64,000 bases of DNA from Lumbricus terrestris. Taxonomy: Eukaryota; Annelida; Clitellata; Crassiclitellata; Lumbricidae. Every line of letters starts with the position of its first letter. The first letter of the stretch is position 1. Below, in pieces: positions 25,623-51,002 of the stretch. The position numbers were made by a program, and so were the translations under genes. Under the pieces are notes generated by a model. The model had not been told where the DNA came from, ran no database searches, and saw nothing but the letters and a program-made list of their open reading frames with translations. The stretch is taken from positions 19,249,512-19,313,511 of the forward strand of contig OX457038.1 of NCBI GenBank assembly GCA_949752735.1. The letters run 5' to 3'.

Positions 25623-25829
25623 TTTGGGAGCAGGGCCGGATTAAGGCATGTTCGACATGTTCGGCCGAACAGGGCCCCCACACTTTTAGGGGCCCCACAC
25701 ATGCAATAGGAATTTTTCATCATTGCTAATTATGATAGTAGATCTAAACTGAGTTCAAAATATATGAAAAATTGTCAAATTATTCAAAAATTAGTGACTT
25801 TAGCATTATGCAACTTTTGCACATGTGGG

Positions 25830-26205
25830 GCCCCTATTGCAGTTTTCATTGCCAGGCAGATTGATCTCAAAATCAGTCAGAAATGCTAGTAAGAGGTATA
25901 CGTTTTTTTGTTCATTTAAAAATTGTGGGGGCTCTTTCTGCAGTTTTCATTGCCAGGCAGATTGATCTTAAAATCAGTCAGAAATGCTAGTAAGAGTTAT
26001 ACGCTTTTTGTTCATTTAAAATTGTGGGGGTCCTTTCTGCAGTTTTCATTGCCAGGCAGATTGATCTTAAAATCAATCAGAAATGCTAGTAAGAGTTATA
26101 CTTTTTTGCTCATGTAAAAATTGTGGGGGCCCTTTCTGCAGTTTTTATTGCCAGGCAGATTGATCTTAAAATCAGTCAGAAACGCTAGCAAGAGTTATAA
26201 ACACT
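25830..26205 (+). repeat. Four tandem copies of an approximately 100-bp unit
   Basis: Each unit contains GCAGTTTTCATTGCCAGGCA, then GATTGATCTNAAAATCA and AGAAATGCTAGTAAGAG. Units start at about 25839, 25940, 26039 and 26138 (periods 101, 99, 99). Copies are very similar, implying recent amplification inside the transposon. Confidence 0.93.
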
Positions 26206-27132: not shown

Positions 27133-28028
27133 AGAGAAGAATATTAGATGTTTTGTGTCAGATTATGAAGAAATGCTATATATAGGACGCTGGAGATTAA
27201 TTTCGCCGAGTGCGATAATATTCACCTAAGTCTAAGATGTGTTTCTAGAACAGAAGTATACATGGAAGAAGACGTGTTCCTGGCAAAATCGATTTTAGTT
27301 TCAGATACCAATAGTTCCAGGATAGTTGGAATGAAAGTTTAACTCAACAGTATACAAGCAGCTTTGAATTCAATCATGGATCAAATGCGGCCGCTGTCAC
27401 GAATACGATAATGCAAGTTCGAAAAAGTTTGAAAAGGCTAGTAAGGCTAATGCGAAAAATATAATTTTCAAGAAAATAGCCAGAAAAATGTGATACTCAT
27501 TCGATACTTGCTCTAAGCTGATTAGTATTTAGTCATTTCCGTGCAGGTTTGCACATCGGGCAACGCACTTCTTTGCGCTGTTTCTGATGCCTAAGTTGCA
27601 TTACCCGGGTGATTTGCAAGCCCGCCGCGGAACCCCCTCCTTTATCCTGGCTTTGGGCTGGCTCCGGCTATCCTAAGATACCCTTAGGCGGAGTTTGATA
27701 CTTGACCAACAATTAAATCTATAGATCTAAGTTTGAAATAAATATAAGCTACTCCATCGAATACGCGTTTAATAGCAGGTTTGATAAACAGAATTTAAAC
27801 TAAGAACAGCCGGGTGTCCAACCTGCAGACTGCGACTGAAAATGCTTATAAGGAAATGAATCAGACATGCAAGCAATTTGAATGCTTCCTCCACCGATCA
27901 TTTCTCCAACGCATTGTGTAAAGGTTCCAATATTCGCTTTGCAGATGTGCTCAGATACGCACTTGATATAAGTTCACAACTTCACATAATAGGTCATCCA
28001 ATATAATTATGCATTCCAAGTGAAGGAC
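27133..28028. other. Non-coding stretch with a degenerate dispersed-repeat copy
   Basis: The CCCTCCTTTATCCTGGC/TTTGGGCTGGC segment at 27630-27670 resembles the dispersed GGGACTGGCACTG repeat. Otherwise nothing recognised. Confidence 0.35.
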
Positions 28029-28063
28029 GTTGCTGGGCAACCTAAAGGACGTTGCTAGGCAAC
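28029..28063. promoter_or_regulatory. Tandem X-box-like (RFX) palindromes
   Basis: GTTGCTGGGCAAC at 28029-28041 and GTTGCTAGGCAAC at 28051-28063 sit in a 22-bp direct duplication. They fit the RFX-type pattern GTTGCY-N-RGCAAC. They lie just beyond the receptor stop codon, so they could be 3' flank or 3' UTR, or a promoter for an unseen gene. Functional status is unknown. Confidence 0.35.
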
Positions 28064-28114
28064 CTATAAGGCTGAGCGAGTTAGTCATCTGGTCGACATA
28101 ATATAATTGTTGTC

Positions 28115-28723
28115 TTAATGAGTTGCGGATGATTTTGTTCCGTTCGTTTCGACTGAATTCGACGGCGGAGGACAAACGAACTCGACACGAACGAGTCTTT
28201 GATGGCTCGGCTGGTCGAGGTTAGGGGCACTCCTCGAAACATGGATGGCGTTTGAGGAGGCTGCACTCGACCCACCGCCACCGGTCAGTCTTCCTTGACC
28301 AGTGTCCATGTTATACTTGAAGTTAATGGCGCCAGGACTCTGGTAGAGGGCGTAGATCTTCGGGGTGAATAGGCAGAGCAGGGTGACGGTGGCGTTGAGT
28401 AGGAGGGCGGACGACACTACGATCGTCTGCTGGTAGACCCTGAGGGTCGTGAAGTAGGAGGGTATGAAGACCAGCCAGATGAGTAGGGTCGTGTAGACGC
28501 AGAACGTTATGTAGCGCGATTCGTTGAAGTTGTCCGGTAGGGTTCGAGTCTTGAAGGCGTAGTAAGTACATATGATGACCAGGAGGACGTTGTAGGACAG
28601 TGACGTCATGAAACCGGAAAGCGACACTGCGCATGTCAGCTCGATGTAGGCTTCCGTCGCCACGGGCATGCGCTTTTCCACTTCCGGTGGAGCGGCGATG
28701 ACGACACCGATGCTTAAAATAAC
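28115..28723 (-). CDS. Metabotropic glutamate receptor-like class C GPCR, terminal coding exon
   Basis: The exon encodes the last 202 residues of a seven-transmembrane receptor of the mGluR family, G-protein-coupled glutamate (or related ligand) receptors of the plasma membrane. Visible in order: end of TM4 (residues 1-10), APPEVEKR extracellular loop with C31, TM5 (SLSYNVLLVIICTYYAF, from 41), the hallmark third intracellular loop FKTRTLPDNFNESR (57-70), TM6 (YITFCVYTTLLIWLVFIP), TM7 (about 99-124) ending in the class C PKIY motif, then a tail of about 78 residues rich in Ser, Gly and Asn. The start is set by a strong acceptor (TTCTTTCAG before 28723, phase 0); an ATG eight codons upstream lies in the intron tract. 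Upstream exons (ligand-binding Venus flytrap, Cys-rich domain, TM1-3) would lie at higher coordinates but were not found. Receptor subgroup and ligand cannot be fixed from this exon. No PDZ-ligand ending is evident. Confidence 0.9.
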   Translation of the reverse strand, partial: VILSIGVVIAAPPEVEKRMPVATEAYIELTCAVSLSGFMTSLSYNVLLVIICTYYAFKTRTLPDNFNESRYITFCVYTTLLIWLVFIPSYFTTLRVYQQTIVVSSALLLNATVTLLCLFTPKIYALYQSPGAINFKYNMDTGQGRLTGGGGSSAASSNAIHVSRSAPNLDQPSHQRLVRVEFVCPPPSNSVETNGTKSSATH

Positions 28724-29520
28724 CTGAAAGAATTTAAACCAATTCATTCATTTAGGCCATATTTATCTATATAAGGCATTTATTAAGTGCACAAAGTAAA
28801 CAATTCTGAAAGTATGATGTTCATAAAATGCCTGTGAAAGCTTGCGGACAAACGTTTTTTCGGCGATAATTCGATCCTGTAAATAGGCCTACTCTTTATC
28901 GTAATTCTTCTTTGAATATGATATTATAGACTATGTGAAAAATAAAATTTCCATAACGATCGGTTTGTTCGCAACACTCGAACGGCGCTGAAGAAGAAGT
29001 TCTTCGAAAGAAAAACTCGTCTATAGATCTACTAGGTCTAACTGAGCACAAATTGCTATAGAGTCTATAAAATGTTTCAACAAAGATTTCTTTAGATACA
29101 GCGGTAATATTTAATGTTTGATTCAATTTATGGATGGTATGGTTCCTTAAGTTTGAAAATACAGATTTTTACATAATGTAGCTCAAATACGCATGATACT
29201 ATGATAGTCTACCTAGATTAAGTTTAAAAGAAAGCCATTGAGATAGATGAACTTAAAGAGAGAAAGTTACTGGTCAATAGAAATAGAGAGAGCTGTAGGT
29301 CTAAGTAACGCTGCACATTAAAACCCTTAAATTCTTCCTCTTCCTCTTCTTCTTTGTGACCACTAAATGCTCAGTATTTTTGTTCGCTACCGGTGGTATA
29401 TTCAGATGTTGTTACTAGCAACTCATGTATACTTTTAGTTTGGTCTGCAAACTGTGCAGGTAGCCATGTAACTTAAAATATGGATGATTCACTGTTGCAA
29501 GGATCGCATGATTCATCAAA
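28724..29520 (-). other. Presumed intron of the receptor gene, no other feature recognised
   Basis: Sequence immediately upstream of the acceptor is pyrimidine-rich on the minus strand. No further receptor exon was found here. Confidence 0.4.
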
Positions 29521-30617: not shown

Positions 30618-31654
30618 TGTCACCGTCCATCGAAATCTAGGGTTTTAAATCTAGCTTTAATAGGGAACTTTATGCTCAGAGGCCATTGGGTGATCAATAT
30701 TAGAATGAACTAGGACCTAAAACAAATGTAGCTGAGATTCGTTTAAAGATTATATTATAATAAAACCATATCAAACAGTAAAATACAATCAATAATCCTA
30801 TCTACTTATTGTGGCGTATTATCTAATAATATTATAGCTTGTTTCTTATCTTCCACGTTGGACTTTTCCAGCGTAGATGTAGAAGTTCTTCAGTTCGTAT
30901 GGATTGGAATGAAGGTTTGAAGAGGAAGGAAGGTCACCTTCTTCTTGCTTGCCGTCGTTTCCAATTCTCTTCCGTAGCTGCGTAGACGGAGAATGCTGTA
31001 GCTGGCACAGCACTCTGTAGTTTCGTCCACCTCGTTGTTTCTCCACAAGCAACGGTAGATTCTCGTCGCTTGCTCGTCTTGTTGTAGTTTCGCACCTTTC
31101 TTCTGCCGTCGAACTCCAATCGCAATTGTAGTTCCGAATTCGATCTTCTCCGATGTCGATCGCAGTGCACTCGCAAGTGTCTCACCAAACTTCGCAAAGT
31201 TTCCGTACGACAAGCCCTGGTATCTCTATTCCCAAGGACTTATAGTCTCACCAGTGGGACAGGCCGACAACGTGTCGCCTTCCACACCCAATTCACCGTC
31301 AGATCTTCTGAATTACCGACAAGGAACGCCACAATCGTCAATGGCCGCCCTTGCTCAGAAATCTACGTCTTCTTCCTTCGCCATCTTTTCGCTGTCTAAC
31401 TTTTCGTCTGCCGTTGTTGCCGTCTGCTCAAGTTTGACGCTGCTTTCTGCCCTTCGTTGTGTTTCGATAATTGATGTAGCGCGTATTCAAGAATTGTTAT
31501 AGCGCTATTATTATTATCTAACTTAATGCCACAAGTAATATTAATTATAATCTACAATACGCCACATATTGTCTAGCTTAATTCTTACCTATTTAATACT
31601 TATACAATGCATCATTTAATAGGTTTGTTTGATAAGAAGCATTCTACCGCTACA
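30618..31654 (-). repeat. 3' LTR of the Gmr1-like element
   Basis: 1037 bp with TG..CA ends, offset exactly 6514 bp from the other LTR. Short open frames inside it (for example 30890-31213) are repeated identically in both LTRs apart from one residue and are not treated as genes. Immediately outside it, at 30614-30617, is the GAGC target duplication. Confidence 0.96.
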
Positions 31655-31658
31655 AATG

Positions 31659-31668
31659 CCCCTCCTTC
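31659..31668 (-). promoter_or_regulatory. Polypurine tract
   Basis: On the minus strand GAAGGAGGGG lies four bases upstream of the 3' LTR. It is the expected primer site for plus-strand DNA synthesis. Confidence 0.75.
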
Positions 31669-31811
31669 AAAAGACTGTTTACAGGCTTTTACAAACTCAC
31701 CTACTTAACAAACTAACCTAGTAAACTAATTCACTTACTATACACGACATGACAATTAATACACTTTACTCACTGGCTTACACTTCTTCATTTACTTTAT
31801 CTCAACTTATA

Positions 31812-34800
31812 CTACACAATCCCTCTACTTAAATAGTCGGACATAACATTTTCGGACCCTTTAATATATCTAATGTTAAAGGAATAGTTTTGGAGTGCCA
31901 AACTCCATCTCATCACCCTTGCATTTTTCATTCGACCCTCTTTCATATATTGCAATCCGCAATGGTCTGTCTCAATTGTAAATGTCTTTCCACAAAGATA
32001 TCGGTCGAACCTGCTTATACCCCACATGATTGCTAAGCACTCTCTCTCTTCCACAGAATATCTTCTCTCTCGCTCTAACAGCTTCCTGCTCGCATACGCT
32101 ATGGGATGATTCGTCCCCTCGTACTGCTGCATTATCACACATCCGATTCCACTCCCACTTGCATCAGTTTGTAGGATGAAATCCTTCTCTAAATTTGGAA
32201 GTCTCAGAATTGGTTCTTTCGCCAATTCGTTCTTCAACTTTGTAAAGCTAACCTCCAGCTCTTCATTCCATTCTACTATCCCAGGTGCTATCTTCTTCGT
32301 TAAGTCACTTAACGGTGCCATAATTTCCGCACAGTGTGGTATGAATTTCCGATAATAGTTTATCGCTCCAAGGAAACTCCTGACTTGTTTCTTTGTCTTT
32401 GGACGTGGCATGTCTATTATTTTATCCACTGATTTCTCCTTTGGACTTATGTCATCCTTGTTCAACGTATGTCCCAAAAAGTCAATCTTTCCATATCCTA
32501 TTGAACACTTCTTCGGCTTCAATGTCAAATTCGCTTGTCTCACTCTTTCGAAAAATATCTCCAATGTCTTCAAATGTTCTCTCCATCCTTTATTATGTGC
32601 TAGAATGTCGTCGACATAACTTTCAAGATTTTCTGTTCCTTGAAGAATCTTCCTGATTAAACGGTTGTAACTTGACGCACTATTGATCAATCCAAAAGGC
32701 ATCACATTGAACTTGTATATCCCGTTGGCACATACAAATGTAGTGTAGTCTTTCGATTCTGGACTCATAGGGATCTGCCAATAACCCTTGCAGAAATCGA
32801 ACTTGCTGTAGATTTTACTACCACTCAACTTATTAAAAATATCCTCATTTGTCATCATAGGCTCAGGATCAAATATTGTAAGTTTGTTTAGCTGTTTGTA
32901 ATTACAACACAGTCTATTGCTTCCGTCTGATTTCTTGACAACCACCAGCGGTGCTGCATAAGCTGCCTCTGATCTTTCTATCACCTTATTGTCTAACATC
33001 GTCTGGATCTCCTTATCTATTTCTTTTTGCAAATGGTATGGTGTTGGATAAGCTCTTTGTCTTACTGGCTCTTCACTCGTCAAATGTATTTCATGCTTCA
33101 CTAAGTCTGTTCTCCCAGGCTTGTCTGTGAAAATGTCTTCATATTTCTTCAGTAGTTTCCTCATTTCTCCTTTTTGTTCTTCATCCAAATCAGGATTTAT
33201 ATCTACATCTTCATAGGTCTCTGTTTGTTCACTTACATATAAATCCAATATTTCTTCTTCTTCATCTTCACCCACTTTTCCGTCATATACTACTGCTGAA
33301 ATGTACGCTACAGTCTCGGCATCTTCTCTTTCGTGATATTTCTTTAATATATTAATGTGATATGTCTTTATCTTTCCTTTCTCGATTTCAACTCTGTAAT
33401 CATAGTCTCCAATCTTCTCTTTCACAACATATGGCCCTTGCCACTTTACTAACATCTTGTTCTTACAACTAGGCAATAGTAACAACACCTTATCACCTAT
33501 TTCCAACTTCCGGTATCTCGCTTTCCTGTCATAATACTTCTTGTTTTTAGCGTTCGCTTTGTGTATCGCCTTCTGCGCCATATCACAAGTCTCCTCAATC
33601 CTTTCTCTCAAATCCTGCATATACGTATATACGTCTTTCACTTCTTCTTCCACTGTCTCATTGGTCCATAACTCCTTCAGGATCTGCACTGGTCCCCTAC
33701 ACGATCTACCAAATATTAGTTCGAATGGTGTGAAACCGTGACTCTCATGTACTGTGTCTCTCAACGCAAACAGTAATGGAGCTATATAACGATCCCATTC
33801 TTTCGCTTGTTCACCAATCAACTTCCTCAACGTCGCTTTGATGGTTCCATTAAGTCTTTCTACACATCCATTGCCCATTGCATGGTATGGACTCGTCATG
33901 GTGTGTTTTATCAATAGCATCTTATTTACTTCAGCCATGAGTTCGGAAGTGAACTGGCTTCCACGATCAGTATGGATCTTCTGAGGCACTCCCATACGAC
34001 AATAAAATCCGAACAAAGCTTCTGCAACTTCCTCAGTACTAATTCCTTTCAATGGAATAGCTTCCGGATATCTTGTACTCAAGTCTATGATGGTCAATAT
34101 GTATCGGTAACCCCTTGCAGACATAGGGTTAACTTCTCCGATTATGTCTATGCATATGTGTTTGAATGGTACATCTAATACAGGTAGATGACCCATAGGC
34201 GCCTTGTGGTTCACCTTCTTGTCAACTGATTTTTGACAAATATCACAACTCAACACATATCTCCGTATATCTTGTCCTATTCCAGGCCAATAGAATTCAT
34301 TTAGGATCTTATCATGTGTTTTCCTCATTCCTAAATGAGCCGATAACAATGAATTGTGTGCCACTGCTAACACTTTATCCCTCAATGGTTTAGGTACCAT
34401 TAGTTGCCATTTCACCTCGTCCTTCTGTACTTCTTTGTATCTTTTATACAACAATCCCTTCTTTTTCACATATGGTTTATCTTCTATGTTGTCTTCGTTA
34501 CCATCCCATTCAATTGCTCTTTCCATTTGTTTCGACATAGTTTCATCTTGACTCTGCAACTCCTGTATCTCTTTTACTGACACATTCAAGTTCGGCATCT
34601 CCGCCACTTTCAATGGTTTGTATTTTGCTACCTTTTTAGCTTCTGCCCTAGTCTCCACAACTGCTACTGTCATTAATTTTTCATCTTGATTCCTCATCAC
34701 ATTGTCAGAAAATCTTACTGTTTTCTTTGCACCAATAGGTCTTTCTTCATGTTCTGTTTTTCTAATCAATATTCCTTTGTTTTCCACTTCAGTACATTTC

Positions 34801-36746
34801 TCAATTATTTCTTTTGGCTCATGATTTGTCACACTCTCAGTTCTTTCATCCTTAACCATGTACTTCAATCCTTTGATTTTCCCAATTATTACTGGCTTTA
34901 TTGGCTGTTCCATCACCATCGCTTGTACTTCACCATTAAAATGTTCACTCTCGATATACACCTTAGCCAATGGGAAACATCTTAAACTCCCATCAACTAA
35001 TACACAATGTGTTTCTTCTCCAGTCAACGCTTCTTCATTTATCAAAGAACGTTTTACAATACAACAACTTGCGCCTGTGTCGTATAAGCATCCCACTGTG
35101 TTTCCATTAACTGTCACCTGGTATTCACTCTTATCTTCAAGGCTAATACATCCATCATTGTCTTTTATCACCATTGCACTAGCTGCCATGTACATTGGTG
35201 GTATTTTATTATGTTCACCCTGTTTCATCTGTTGTTCTCCTCTTGTAACTTCAACCACTCTCTGTATTTCACTTTCTGGCTTAACCAAGTGTGCTCGACT
35301 TTCGAATATTTGTACTGCTGCTGCAGTGTGTTTAAATGTACCCCTGTTTTTCTTTGGGCATTGATATGCCTTATGGTTCTGTTCTCCACAGAAAAAACAA
35401 GTAATCTTATGTCCAGTTGCAATTTCTCTTTCTCTACTGAACCCTCGGTTTTGATGTACACCCTGATTTATCTTCACATCACTTCTACTCCTGTTCAAAT
35501 TGTACCCAGACTGTTCCTTGGGTCTGTGTTCAAACGGTCTACCGTTCAACCTGTCACCATGGAATTTCACGTCTGATTTTGCAGACTGCTCGCTGTATTT
35601 GTAACCGTGTGCTTCAATGTGTGATTCCGCACAAACCAACATGTCCTTCAAACTCATTTTACCTTTCTCTTTTATAAACATACGAAGTTCAGTACTGCAT
35701 GTCAGGTAAAACTGGTCTTTCAACAAGAGATCTTCCACTCCTTCATAAGTTCTCTCAAATCCCGCTTGTGCTAACCACTGTTGCATATACCTTCTCAATC
35801 TATGCACAAAACTAGAAGGTGTCTCTCCTGATTCCATTTTACTGGTTTTGAACTTGTTTCGATAACCACCTTCAGTAAGTTGAAATCTCTTCAACAGCTG
35901 AGTCTTCAAACACTCATAATCTTGCACTTCATCTGCAGACAACCTTTGGTATACTTCTAGTGCTCTGCCTTCCAAATGTCTAGCTAGCGTCAGCGACCAA
36001 ACTTCTTTTTTAACTTCGTACGCAACACAGGTTCTCTCGAATCTCAACAAGTAGGCATCTAAACAATCCTTTGACTCGTTGAATATAGGGAATTTGATAT
36101 TTCTAATTCCTTTATTGTTTTCTCGGTGATCTCCCTGTTGTTGACCATCACCGATCCTCATGTAGTCACTCTCGTGCTCTCGGTTTTGTTCCCCTCTCGA
36201 ATCAATTTCACGCATTCTCACCTGTGCTTCAAGTCTCTTTATCTCTAACTGGTGTTCACGCTGTTCTCTGGCTTCTGTTGCCAAGCGACTTTCTCTCGCT
36301 TCTGTCTCAGCTGCTTCACGATTCAATCTGGCTTCTGCTTCAGCACTCCTGATTGCTTCCAATTCCAGTTCAGCCTTCTTTGCTTGCATTGCAGCCTCTG
36401 TTTCAGCTTTTCTTGTTTCTGCTTCAGCTTTTCTCGTTGCTGCTTCTGTTTCAGCTTTTCTCGCTGCTGCTTCAGCTTTTCTCATTTCTGCTGCTGCTTC
36501 AGCTTCCATCTCTGCTTTTCTCGTAGCAGCTTCTGTTTCAGCCTTCCTCGTTACTGCTTCTATCTCAAGTCTCTTGACTTCTGCTGCTGCTTCAGCTAAT
36601 TTCATCTCTTTGGCGATCTCCCTCTCAGTCGCTCTATCTTGTCTCCATTCTGCCTGTCTTTCTTTGACAAAGGCACGTGTCTCGTCCCCTTCCATGTTCA
36701 TCCGTTTGGCAATTTCTAACCAAGCTTCAAAATCACTGACAGACAT
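31812..36746 (-). CDS. Gag-pol polyprotein, order gag-PR-IN-RT-RNaseH
   Basis: One 1644-residue ORF supplies capsid and enzymes for retrotransposition. Residues about 35-190 form an Ala/Glu/Lys-rich coiled coil with KAETEAATRKAE-type repeats. A Ty3-like gag core is about 215-380. A CCHC zinc knuckle is C450-X2-C453-X4-H458-X4-C463. The aspartic protease motif DTGAS is at 556-560. Integrase follows: zinc-binding H797, H804, C834, C837; catalytic D867, D927, E963 (D-X59-D-X35-E); GPY motif at 1104-1106. RT comes after integrase: about 1235-1430, with YVDD at 1377-1380. RNase H carries D1528, E1567, D1594 and D1637 and ends just before the stop. Usual Ty3/gypsy elements place integrase last; this order is the Gmr1 signature. 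There is no frameshift between gag and pol, so expression as a single polyprotein is inferred. The ATG at 36744-36746 is the first in frame after the leader. Confidence 0.97.
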   Translation of the reverse strand: MSVSDFEAWLEIAKRMNMEGDETRAFVKERQAEWRQDRATEREIAKEMKLAEAAAEVKRLEIEAVTRKAETEAATRKAEMEAEAAAEMRKAEAAARKAETEAATRKAEAETRKAETEAAMQAKKAELELEAIRSAEAEARLNREAAETEARESRLATEAREQREHQLEIKRLEAQVRMREIDSRGEQNREHESDYMRIGDGQQQGDHRENNKGIRNIKFPIFNESKDCLDAYLLRFERTCVAYEVKKEVWSLTLARHLEGRALEVYQRLSADEVQDYECLKTQLLKRFQLTEGGYRNKFKTSKMESGETPSSFVHRLRRYMQQWLAQAGFERTYEGVEDLLLKDQFYLTCSTELRMFIKEKGKMSLKDMLVCAESHIEAHGYKYSEQSAKSDVKFHGDRLNGRPFEHRPKEQSGYNLNRSRSDVKINQGVHQNRGFSREREIATGHKITCFFCGEQNHKAYQCPKKNRGTFKHTAAAVQIFESRAHLVKPESEIQRVVEVTRGEQQMKQGEHNKIPPMYMAASAMVIKDNDGCISLEDKSEYQVTVNGNTVGCLYDTGASCCIVKRSLINEEALTGEETHCVLVDGSLRCFPLAKVYIESEHFNGEVQAMVMEQPIKPVIIGKIKGLKYMVKDERTESVTNHEPKEIIEKCTEVENKGILIRKTEHEERPIGAKKTVRFSDNVMRNQDEKLMTVAVVETRAEAKKVAKYKPLKVAEMPNLNVSVKEIQELQSQDETMSKQMERAIEWDGNEDNIEDKPYVKKKGLLYKRYKEVQKDEVKWQLMVPKPLRDKVLAVAHNSLLSAHLGMRKTHDKILNEFYWPGIGQDIRRYVLSCDICQKSVDKKVNHKAPMGHLPVLDVPFKHICIDIIGEVNPMSARGYRYILTIIDLSTRYPEAIPLKGISTEEVAEALFGFYCRMGVPQKIHTDRGSQFTSELMAEVNKMLLIKHTMTSPYHAMGNGCVERLNGTIKATLRKLIGEQAKEWDRYIAPLLFALRDTVHESHGFTPFELIFGRSCRGPVQILKELWTNETVEEEVKDVYTYMQDLRERIEETCDMAQKAIHKANAKNKKYYDRKARYRKLEIGDKVLLLLPSCKNKMLVKWQGPYVVKEKIGDYDYRVEIEKGKIKTYHINILKKYHEREDAETVAYISAVVYDGKVGEDEEEEILDLYVSEQTETYEDVDINPDLDEEQKGEMRKLLKKYEDIFTDKPGRTDLVKHEIHLTSEEPVRQRAYPTPYHLQKEIDKEIQTMLDNKVIERSEAAYAAPLVVVKKSDGSNRLCCNYKQLNKLTIFDPEPMMTNEDIFNKLSGSKIYSKFDFCKGYWQIPMSPESKDYTTFVCANGIYKFNVMPFGLINSASSYNRLIRKILQGTENLESYVDDILAHNKGWREHLKTLEIFFERVRQANLTLKPKKCSIGYGKIDFLGHTLNKDDISPKEKSVDKIIDMPRPKTKKQVRSFLGAINYYRKFIPHCAEIMAPLSDLTKKIAPGIVEWNEELEVSFTKLKNELAKEPILRLPNLEKDFILQTDASGSGIGCVIMQQYEGTNHPIAYASRKLLERERRYSVEERECLAIMWGISRFDRYLCGKTFTIETDHCGLQYMKEGRMKNARVMRWSLALQNYSFNIRYIKGSENVMSDYLSRGIV

Positions 36747-37016
36747 ACTTACTGTCTTACTTGCTGACTAGCAACTTATGACAAAAATATTGGCAACTAT
36801 GTGCGCTATTTAAATTTCTAACAAATAGAAATTGTTCAATTCTGCAAAGTGTCAATTCAGTTCCACAACAACAACTAATCTATTAAACTATTAGAGATTA
36901 GTAGTTCATACAACCTACTGCAGTATCTTCAATCTACAATTTCAGATTTAGTCTCTAACAATCTCCTAGCTATAATTGTTCAAAGCTTTTCTAATACTGT
37001 TCAAAAGACAGTTTTT

Positions 37017-37106
37017 TACTGACTCAAATCTTTACTGAATTAAATCTTTAATGACTTAAATCTTTACTTACTCAAATCTTTACTGACTTAAATCTTTACT
37101 GACTTT
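37017..37106 (-). repeat. 16-bp tandem repeat in the retrotransposon leader
   Basis: On the plus strand TGACTTAAATCTTTAC-like units repeat about five times with period 16, between the PBS and the gag start. Possible role in packaging or leader folding is inference. Confidence 0.85.
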
Positions 37107-37109
37107 TAT

Positions 37110-37127
37110 CCCGGGCATGGGCACCCA
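37110..37127 (-). promoter_or_regulatory. Candidate primer-binding site
   Basis: Four bases after the 5' LTR, the minus strand reads TGGGTGCCCATGCCCGGG. It begins with TGG, complementary to a tRNA CCA end. The tRNA species was not identified. Confidence 0.6.
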
Positions 37128-37131
37128 CTCG

Positions 37132-38168
37132 TGTCACCGTCCATCGAAATCTAGGGTTTTAAATCTAGCTTTAATAGGGAACTTTATGCTCAGAGGCCAT
37201 TGGGTGATCAATATTAGAATGAACTAGGACCTAAAACAAATGTAGCTGAGATTCGTTTAAAGATTATATTATAATAAAACCATATCAAACAGTAAAATAC
37301 AATCAATAATCCTATCTACTTATTGTGGCGTATTATCTAATAATATTATAGCTTGTTTCTTATCTTCCACGTTGGACTTTTCCAGCGTAGATGTAGAAGT
37401 TCTTCAGTTCGTATGGATTGGAATGAAGGTTTGAAGAGGAAGGAAGGTCACCTTCTTCTTGCTTGCCGTCGTTTCCAATTCTCTTCCGTAGCTGCGTAGA
37501 CGGAGAATGCTGTAGCTGGCACAGCACTCTGTAGTTTCGTCCACCTCGTTGTTTCTCCACAAGCAACGGTAGCTTCTCGTCGCTTGCTCGTCTTGTTGTA
37601 GTTTCGCACCTTTCTTCTGCCGTCGAACTCCAATCGCAATTGTAGTTCCGAATTCGATCTTCTCCGATGTCGATCGCAGTGCACTCGCAAGTGTCTCACC
37701 AAACTTCGCAAAGTTTCCGTACGACAAGCCCTGGTATCTCTATTCCCAAGGACTTATAGTCTCACCAGTGGGACAGGCCGACAACGTGTCGCCTTCCACA
37801 CCCAATTCACCGTCAGATCTTCTGAATTACCGACAAGGAACGCCACAATCGTCAATGGCCGCCCTTGCTCAGAAATCTACGTCTTCTTCCTTCGCCATCT
37901 TTTCGCTGTCTAACTTTTCGTCTGCCGTTGTTGCCGTCTGCTCAAGTTTGACGCTGCTTTCTGCCCTTCGTTGTGTTTCGATAATTGATGTAGCGCGTAT
38001 TCAAGAATTGTTATAGCGCTATTATTATTATCTAACTTAATGCCACAAGTAATATTAATTATAATCTACAATACGCCACATATTGTCTAGCTTAATTCTT
38101 ACCTATTTAATACTTATACAATGCATCATTTAATAGGTTTGTTTGATAAGAAGCATTCTACCGCTACA
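37132..38168 (-). repeat. 5' LTR of the Gmr1-like element
   Basis: 1037 bp, identical to the 3' LTR except at 37573 as far as I could compare. Expected to contain promoter and polyadenylation signals, but neither could be pinned down by eye. Confidence 0.96.
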
Positions 38169-49530: not shown

Positions 49531-49787
49531 CACATAATTATTGCAGGAGGTGTACGTGTGTGCCTTCAGGGTACGCGGGACCGATAAAATCTATTAGATC
49601 TATATCCGAGGCTTCGTTTTCGTTAGAAAATATTGTAAGCATTTTAATTGAATCACTGAGTGCTTTAGACATCCTCTGTGTCCAATACTTTGTTAGCTTA
49701 TAACTTCAGATGACCTTCTTACATGTATGTCCTTGAATAGTGTCTTCTGTATTCAGAAGACGCGTAAATACCGCACCCTGAGCTTTG

Positions 49788-49950
49788 GTTACCAAGGCAA
49801 CATATTGTGATCGGGGGTGCGATATGACTGGCTGTAGGCCGGTTACCAAGGCAGCGTATTGTGTTCAACGCTGCGCTATGATTGGCTACAAGCGGTTCCT
49901 TTTTGGCCTGAAATCCATAAAAAAGAAGCGTTCCCTTATGGCACTCAGTC
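49788..49950 (+). promoter_or_regulatory. Promoter of the protamine-like gene: two X-box units, CCAAT-type box, TATA-like box, initiator
   Basis: GTTACCAAGGCAAC (49788-49801) fits the RFX consensus GTNRCC-N2-RGYAAC exactly; GTTACCAAGGCAGC (49842-49855) differs at one base. They lie in two tandem 54-bp units that also share TATTGTG and a GACTGGCT/GATTGGCT block. ATTGG (49881-49885) is an inverted CCAAT box. CATAAAAAA (49916-49924) is TATA-like, and TCAGTC (49945-49950) is an initiator about 30 bp downstream, placing a likely start at about 49947 and a 43-nt 5' UTR. RFX and CCAAT boxes would suit testis or ciliated-cell expression; this is inference. Confidence 0.6.
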
Positions 49951-49989
49951 CGTCCTACGCTGGAAGAAGATCGGAAGAACAACAAGAGG

Positions 49990-50612
49990 ATGGAAGACTA
50001 CGAAGATCTCGAACTGGTAAGTTTGACTTATATAACTTATACTGGCCGAAAGGAAGCGGTCCTCGGACCGTCTCTCTTCGGCCAGTGTAAGAGTCAAACT
50101 TACAAGAGAACCGGGCCATTTTAGGCCTTAGATAGGAGTAATAATAGGCCTAGCTGTTTATAAAGTGTAAGGTTAAATAGATTGAGCTTTATCTATATCT
50201 AGATTCTTCTATATTTAGATTTTTCTATATTTAGATTTATCATTACTAGTCCTGTATACGGACCGATGTCTAAGCTTTTAAGCTTAGTCACTGGCCTGTT
50301 TTAATATAGCTTAGATTCAGGCGATTGTTGCCCTTTAAGGCGTTCTCTTAGGGCAGGGTGTGGTTATTCTTTGTTGCGCAGGAAGAAGACCTGGGAGAGG
50401 AAGTCGAAGCGAGTCGGAGGGCGAGGTCTCGCAGCGCTCGGCCGGGAGCGTCGGCAGCAGCGGCGGCCAAGGACGACGATGACGAGGGAGGGACTCCTTC
50501 GAGACGGAGACGGAGGCGCGGCCGACGAGGGAGCCGCCGTCGCCGACGAGGGAGCCGTCGCCGACGACGAAGCCATGGACGCCGCCGACGACGTCGCCGA
50601 CGCCACTACTAG
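49990..50612 (+). CDS. Protamine-like arginine-rich small protein, two exons (49990-50016, 50382-50612)
   Basis: Spliced, this encodes 85 residues. Exon 1 gives MEDYEDLEL (ATG in context AGGATGG) and stops at a perfect GTAAGT donor in phase 0. Exon 2 follows TTGTTGCGCAG and continues in frame with EEDLGEEVEA, so an acidic head crosses the junction, which supports the model. Then come RRARSRSAR, a five-alanine run, an acidic KDDDDE linker, and a C-terminal block of Arg clusters separated by G, S and H (SRRRRRRGRRG, SRRRRRG, SHG, then eight Arg and HY). Arg-cluster tails of this kind are typical of protamines, which replace histones in sperm chromatin; an acidic removable leader is known for some protamine precursors. 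The promoter and AATAAA (50738-50743) complete a compact gene. Other frames of exon 2 are open only because the DNA is GC-rich. Alternatives are an RNA-binding basic peptide or a chance frame. Confidence 0.6.
50017..50103 (+). other. Intronic hairpin starting exactly at the 5' splice site
   Basis: GTAAGTTTGACT (50017-50028) pairs perfectly with AGTCAAACTTAC (50092-50103). After a 7-nt bulge, CTTATACTGGCCGAA (50036-50050) pairs with TTCGGCCAGTGTAAG (50077-50091), with one G-U pair. A partly paired 6x6 internal loop follows, then CGGTC/GACCG closing a CTCG tetraloop. The donor GTAAGT is fully inside the basal stem. The geometry matches a 3'-tailed mirtron (hairpin at the intron 5' end, about 278-nt tail to the acceptor) or a splice-site-masking structure. 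Confidence 0.65.
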
Positions 50613-50737
50613 ACGACGCTGCTACGATCGGGAGGGCGTCCTCCTCCTTCTTCGCTGAAGACGGGGAAGATACGAGCGACCGCAACAGATGAACTAATTT
50701 AAAATACTAGACCGATGAAGTCTATGAATATTCGCTC

Positions 50738-50743
50738 AATAAA
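50738..50743 (+). terminator. Polyadenylation signal AATAAA
   Basis: It lies 125 bp after the stop codon of the protamine-like ORF and is the first AATAAA downstream. Confidence 0.6.
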
Positions 50744-50774
50744 AGTTGAAATGAAATAACTTGTCTTATTCTTC

Positions 50775-51002
50775 TAGGGTTATAGGCCTAGATATATGTT
50801 TTAGACCTAGTCACTTTAGGCTGCCCAGCAGACCGCATAGGCTCCCTGTGACGTTAGGCTCTCCTGTAAATTGGAGGTTTCAGCTTCAGGAGTTCTAGGG
50901 TTATAGGCCTAGATAGGTTTCAACCACTTTAGGTTGCCTGCAGACGATTAGGCTCCCCGCTCCCTGGAATATTAGGCTCTCCCGTAGCTTCAGAAGTGTA
51001 GG
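50775..51002 (+). repeat. Diverged tandem duplication of about 118 bp
   Basis: Both copies start TTCTAGGGTTATAGGCCTAG and contain CACTTTAGG.TGCC, then TTAGGCTCTCC and CTTCAG. Copies begin at about 50775 and 50893. Confidence 0.8.

Follow-up and report, generated by a model that had tools for sequence, protein, structure and literature searches.

Does a short, arginine-rich stretch of the 64-kb window analysed here (the whole stretch of DNA, to which all coordinates below refer) encode a protein that packs sperm DNA, and if so, what could be the role of an acidic head on that protein and of a predicted RNA hairpin that coincides with the 5' splice site of its only intron? Sperm DNA-packing proteins are of low complexity and often fast-evolving, and are therefore missed by ordinary homology searches (PMC12216123). 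Arthropods have been described as one of the large groups for which very little is known on these proteins (PMC11607694). A gene found by its anatomy would add a possibly independent protamine type along with a clear test case for the function of an acidic head, and might also exemplify how splicing controls a protein that is possibly harmful if made too early. We favour, with a probability of roughly 0.62, a real, protein-coding two-exon animal gene, whose product would be the acid-headed precursor of a protamine-type sperm nuclear basic protein. The anatomy of the predicted gene, the charge layout of its product, the X-boxes upstream of it and the predicted hairpin are established from the sequence, and are discussed below together with the alternatives that each of them leaves.

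Anatomy of the gene and its surroundings

The predicted gene lies on the plus strand and has two exons, whose coding parts (49990-50016 and 50382-50612) are spliced in frame (phase 0, GTAAGT...GCGCAG) to give a protein of 85 residues. The first exon (49947-50016) consists of a 5' UTR of 43 nt followed by the ATG at 49990 and the remaining codons for MEDYEDLEL, and the start codon is found in the context AGAGGATGG, with A at -3 and G at +4. The phase-0 intron of 365 nt (50017-50381) begins with GTAAGT and ends with TTGCGCAG, and the junction 50016/50382 links MEDYEDLEL to EEDLGEEVEA. The coding part of the second exon (50382-50612) comprises EEDLGEEVEASRRARSRSARPGASAAAAAKDDDDEGGTPS, the Arg tail and a TAG stop. 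The tail (50502-50609) has 36 residues, 26 of which are Arg, and contains an internal repeat of 21 nt (D1); the C-terminus of the protein reads RRRRRRRRHY, i.e., eight Arg followed by HY. A sequence match to the AATAAA poly(A) signal is located at 50738-50743. The second exon has no upstream in-frame ATG of its own and the protein therefore depends on the splice. The ATG, donor, acceptor, junction, terminal Arg run with HY and AATAAA, as well as a TATA-like box and an initiator described later, are all positioned where the original prediction had placed them, and, judged on these signals, the two-exon gene model is well supported. The tandem X-boxes and the donor hairpin treated below were not among the features of the original prediction, and they strengthen the case. 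A further ATG, at 49938, lies 9 bases 5' of the predicted transcription start and would be the first one in any message that starts 5' of it.

By blastn, no other copy of the gene was found within the 64-kb window, and the best match beyond the gene itself and the arms of the hairpin was a repeat of 23 nt downstream of it. This exact repeat, TTCTAGGGTTATAGGCCTAGATA, occurs just past the poly(A) signal at 50772-50794 and again at 50893-50915, 121 bases apart, and further repeated pieces (D4, D6) are seen at a similar spacing. The window at large has a GC content of 0.36-0.48 per 2 kb and is rich in microsatellites. On its minus strand, what appears to be the last exon of a metabotropic glutamate receptor, a class C GPCR, could be recognized at 28118-28747 by its match to the Pfam family 7tm_3 (E-value 1.6e-31) and to mGlu5 in the PDB (E-value 3.4e-29). 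Beside this exon, at 28023-28071, is a tandem repeat of 22 nt with GTTGCTAGGCAAC, an X-box-like palindrome. A tandem array with a unit of 99 nt (3.8 copies, 92% matches) spans 25824-26199. Also on the minus strand is a retroelement of the LTR type (30849-38013, labelled by eye) with one long open frame at 31815-36767; its flanking segments, 30849-31499 and 37363-38013, have nearly identical translations and look like its two LTRs, and the insertion may therefore be recent. The receptor exon and the retroelement, along with the spliceosomal signals of the predicted gene, are the grounds on which we regard the window as animal DNA.

Sequence searches and charge layout of the protein

Searches with the 85-residue protein did not find homologues at E-values up to 10 among about 5.8 billion proteins (47 word-sharing candidates, none of which scored), nor a sequence match in the PDB at E-values up to 10, nor any Pfam family, the linker-histone winged-helix domain included, at E-values up to 1. 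As a positive control for the protein database, the metabotropic glutamate receptor exon of the same window retrieved 44 relatives, with 88% identity across 88% of the query for the best of them, which shows that the database covers animal sequence. Homologue searches are weak for short, low-complexity Arg proteins that are split by an intron, and simple gene callers often miss short spliced genes; the short Arg repeats of honey bee P2 are reported to have likewise defeated the first searches (PMC12216123). Since homology to a known protamine was sought and not found, we assign the protein to no named protamine family and liken it to protamines by its working only; the gene is perhaps lineage-specific. 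Baculovirus P6.9-like proteins are protamine-like, and a viral origin of the gene was also considered. It is unlikely because of the intron and the host-type signals, and 600 pattern matches on viral contigs yielded no tblastn relative at an E-value of 1e-3, in a comparison from which records near the window's own genome may be left out.

The charges of the predicted protein are arranged in blocks. Residues 1-19 form a head with 11 acidic and no basic residues and a net charge of about -11.5, followed by a linker (residues 20-39, +5.5), the segment DDDDEGGTPS (residues 40-49, -5.2) and the tail (residues 50-85, +25.9). The original prediction suggested a protamine precursor whose charge is neutralised until deposition on sperm DNA. 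We find that the charge of the tail is partly offset by the head and the DDDDE patch but not cancelled: the whole protein stays at about +15.7, and 'neutralised' is therefore too strong a word. Being small and having dense Arg clusters, 26 of the 36 residues of its tail, the product of 85 residues is like a protamine. Protamines are typically 60-80% Arg (PMC3073880), and the whole protein, with 31 Arg among 85 residues (36%), is below this range, so that, on predicted composition, the protamine-like part is the tail only. The protein should be disordered.

Predicted promoter elements and the probable site of expression

A TATA-like box, CATAAAAAAG, is present on the plus strand at 49916-49925 (-31 to -22), upstream of an initiator, TCAGTC (49945-49950), the A of which, at 49947, is the predicted start of transcription. 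In the 64 kb, counting both strands, this is the only TATA/initiator pair of the searched form and spacing, which is only suggestive because the pattern was written after the site was seen. Further upstream on the same strand are two repeat units of 47 nt that are 81% identical and have a spacing of 54. The first unit (49787-49833) carries the X-box GTTACCAAGGCAAC at 49788-49801 (-159 to -146 from the predicted start), and the second (49841-49887) carries the X-box GTTACCAAGGCAGC at 49842-49855 (-105 to -92) along with an inverted CCAAT (ATTGG) at 49881-49885. The X-box pattern GTTRCCNNGGCARC, which was written after seeing the sites, matches these two X-boxes only and has no match in 100 shuffles. 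With three mismatches allowed, the motif has 10 matches against 4.35 expected, a count equalled in 2 of 100 shuffles; weak X-box matches therefore mean nothing, unlike the two strong ones, which are conspicuous. Being a duplication, the units amount to one observation and not to two independent ones.

RFX2 is reported to be a major regulator of mouse spermiogenesis, with sites that in most targets lie very near the start, and RFX factors to control ciliogenesis genes generally (PMC4498915). The X-boxes of the present gene similarly lie near the transcription start, as far as this start is correctly predicted. If they are functional, the tandem X-boxes would lend independent support, though not proof, to a sperm or germ-line role, as ciliary genes carry X-boxes too. 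According to the mouse Rfx2 study, protamines are made after the arrest seen in the knockout, and the mRNAs of the transition proteins are not reduced (PMC4498915); that study therefore offers no direct precedent for RFX control of a protamine. The general role of RFX factors in ciliogenesis also leaves room for a real gene with a function outside sperm, for example, a nuclear or ciliated-cell peptide that is rich in Arg, binds RNA or the nucleolus and is switched on by RFX in ciliated cells. Stretches such as RARSRS together with acidic runs are also found in RNA-binding nuclear proteins, which would fit such a role. The Pfam searches, however, detected no RNA-binding or other domain in the protein, and its Arg residues are concentrated in a terminal tail with breaks of Gly, Ser and His, which presumably resembles protamines rather than RS repeats. 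We therefore consider a function of this kind unlikely. The small size of the protein, its Arg clusters broken by Gly, Ser and His, the 21-nt repeat in the tail and the RFX sites together favour the precursor of a sperm nuclear basic protein, and a protamine precursor in which the head restrains the charge is plausible, with a working parallel in mouse protamine 2, whose head is cleaved off.

The Arg tail compared with chance

None of 3000 randomised versions of the second exon (1000 each of Markov order 1, 2 and 3, read in six frames) reached 26 Arg in 36 residues. The counts of Arg per 36 residues in these versions had means of 13.4, 14.0 and 15.5 and maxima of 19, 24 and 24 for the orders 1, 2 and 3, respectively. 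The highest count elsewhere in the window, 18 of 36, comes from an RE microsatellite. All six kinds of Arg codon are used among the 31 of the protein (CGA 10, CGC 9, CGG 4, AGG 3, CGT 3 and AGA 2), and the entropies of the tail frame by codon position are 1.31, 0.59 and 1.80, the third position varying most. The minus strand of the tail is likewise rich in Arg (23 of 36), probably as a by-product of the CGN codons, and a minus-strand Arg gene was set aside as its frame is without a start codon. We also note that both other frames of the plus strand are open across the Arg-coding stretch, at 50305-50655 (rich in Asp, Glu and Ala) and at 50483-50689, and this too is probably a by-product of the CGN codons.

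It could be argued that there is no working gene at this locus, but a GC-rich, CGN-rich stretch with signals that arose by chance, or a gene that has decayed. The lack of a homologue in the searches above, the Arg-rich minus strand, a CpG ratio of 1.42 in the second exon as against 0.88 for the window, and a donor that is locked in a predicted hairpin would all agree with this view. The outcome of the randomisations and the mixture of AGR and CGN codons for Arg argue against it, as do the promoter, splice and poly(A) signals, which are complete and in order, and the two X-boxes. On balance, we regard the absence of a working gene as improbable.

A predicted hairpin at the 5' splice site

The 5' end of the intron is predicted to fold into a hairpin of 87 nt (50017-50103, plus strand) in which the donor GTAAGT is wholly paired with ACTTAC. 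A hand count on the predicted structure gives a stem of 36 pairs (33 Watson-Crick and 3 G-U) with two A/C mismatches, a bulge of 7 nt and a loop of 4 nt, and the stem base is G50017, the first base of the predicted intron. The stretch of 107 nt at 50006-50112 has a folding energy of -58.3 kcal/mol as compared with -24.0 +/- 3.3 for 200 shuffles (z -10.3), and of 6389 overlapping segments of 110 nt (10-nt step, plus strand only) the one at 50001 has the lowest energy. The 64 kb hold 15 pairs of inverted repeats that are 24 nt or longer and lie within 200 bases. Sorted by eye, these comprise the donor hairpin, 13 pairs that are microsatellites or palindromes rich in AT, and I13, with a match of 71% and a gap of 89 nt. 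The arms of the donor hairpin differ by five substitutions and the one 7-nt bulge, a G-U pair being kept in three of the five; such differences are similar to those expected from neutral decay of an inverted duplication, and the pairs are therefore no proof of selection. The striking feature of the modelled hairpin is that its stem base coincides with the splice site. Insertion of an element with terminal inverted repeats was set aside as the source of the intron, as no target-site duplication could be seen by eye beside the hairpin and no related copy was found in the window. If the intron were retained, translation would yield MEDYEDLELVSLTYITYTGRKEAVLGPSLFGQCKSQTYKRTGPF and then a stop, giving a product of 44 residues without the Arg tail.

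Could the hairpin instead be a source of small RNAs for RNAi, i.e., a 3'-tailed mirtron with the protein gene as its host? The splice donor is reported to define the 5' end of 3'-tailed mirtrons (PMC4513878, PMC10853799), and the 5' end of the predicted stem likewise coincides with the 5' splice site of the predicted intron, as also in Drosophila miR-1017. In miR-1017, the donor is described as paired in the base of the hairpin, which lowers splicing, and the host intron as tending to be retained; splicing was abolished when a different hairpin was put in, and came back in part once the donor was freed (PMC10853799). However, the branch point of miR-1017 is given at a distance of 8 from the hairpin (PMC10853799), and for human tailed mirtrons a hairpin end within 5 nt of the branch point is reported in 13 of 17 cases (PMC4513878), whereas 278 nt of the present intron lie 3' of the hairpin, so that its branch point is probably far. 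For this reason the mirtron is ranked below both a splicing brake and an accident of inverted duplication. The window also has no Rfam family at gathering scores over its whole length, and the five arm differences (three G-U and two A/C) look like neutral decay. A stem of 36 bp, moreover, exceeds the usual length of a pre-miRNA. A mirtron is compatible with a protamine-type precursor encoded by the same gene, but on these grounds it is quite unlikely.

The lowest-ranked alternative, a fragment of a larger histone H1-derived protamine-like (PL) protein whose winged-helix part is encoded by further exons, draws on the proposal that H1-domain PL precursors are the origin of many protamines, those of spiders included (PMC11607694), but is very improbable given the gene's own promoter-like signals, start codon and nearby poly(A) signal and a Pfam scan of the protein and 9 other reading frames of the window that detected no linker-histone domain in the protein.

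A hypothesis for function

Under the preferred reading of an acid-headed, protamine-type precursor, we infer male germ-line expression, cleavage of the protein, DNA packing and splicing control. Binding of RFX-family factors to the tandem X-boxes would turn the gene on in the male germ line, and each transcript would undergo a single splicing event. The hairpin that buries the donor would probably slow this event, and transcripts left unspliced would give the short peptide without the tail. In the translated precursor, the acidic head and the DDDDE patch would weaken DNA binding by the Arg tail, or would keep a chaperone bound, up to the removal of the head by a cleavage that perhaps occurs near GGTPS/RRRRRR. 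The freed tail of 36 residues would then pack the DNA of sperm. It is tempting to combine these steps into a double safety, in which the hairpin retains the intron until a helicase or splicing factor of the spermatid stage acts on it and the acidic head restrains the tail until cleavage, with small RNAs that may additionally arise from the hairpin. We offer this combination as a speculative and rather unlikely extension. The hairpin may be without effect if the donor is bound by U1 ahead of transcription of the 3' arm, and the strong pairing of the donor could equally mean that the intron is simply badly spliced. A hairpin of this kind at the splice site of a protamine gene is not known to us, and the portions available of the literature matches listed mention none, which gives a claim of novelty little to stand on.

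Comparison with known systems

The predicted hairpin is similar to that of Drosophila miR-1017 in starting from the 5' splice site, in having the donor paired in its base and in being followed by a 3' remainder of the intron; the two differ in that the host genes are unrelated and in the branch point, which here is probably far from the hairpin.

Among the protamines, the head of the squid pro-protamines is not known to be strongly acidic. The squid proteins (Loligo Sp1/Sp2) are like the present one in being invertebrate pro-proteins with long Arg runs, but the mature form of Sp2 is described as a chain of 58 residues that is 79% Arg and includes 4 Tyr (PMC3073880). Apis P2, Nasonia PL1/PL2 and the protamines of Steatoda share with the present protein a basic peptide that is presumably released from a longer precursor (PMC12216123, PMC13148410, PMC11607694). 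The spider protamines differ in being linked to a precursor with the histone H1/H5 winged helix (PMC11607694), which was not detected in the present protein, and the word 'acidic' is absent from the main texts that describe these insect and spider precursors (PMC12216123, PMC13148410, PMC11607694). No acid-headed invertebrate protamine was noticed in the portions available of the literature matches listed, although such a protein may still have been described elsewhere.

Mammalian protamine 2 (PRM2) has no sequence relation to the present protein that we could find, and its cP2 peptide, as described, mixes basic and acidic residues, unlike the exclusively acidic charges of residues 1-19 here. 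PRM2 contains Cys, whereas the tail of the present protein is without Cys. In layout, nevertheless, the PRM2 precursor is alike, being a small gene product in which a head with many acidic residues is followed by an Arg tail (PMC9273070). Cleavage of an N-terminal domain is reported to be common among protamines of both vertebrates and invertebrates (PMC12216123); in PRM2 the head is removed during condensation, DNA binding by the precursor before the cut is reported to be weaker than that of the mature form, and deletion of the cP2 head leaves male mice infertile (PMC9273070).
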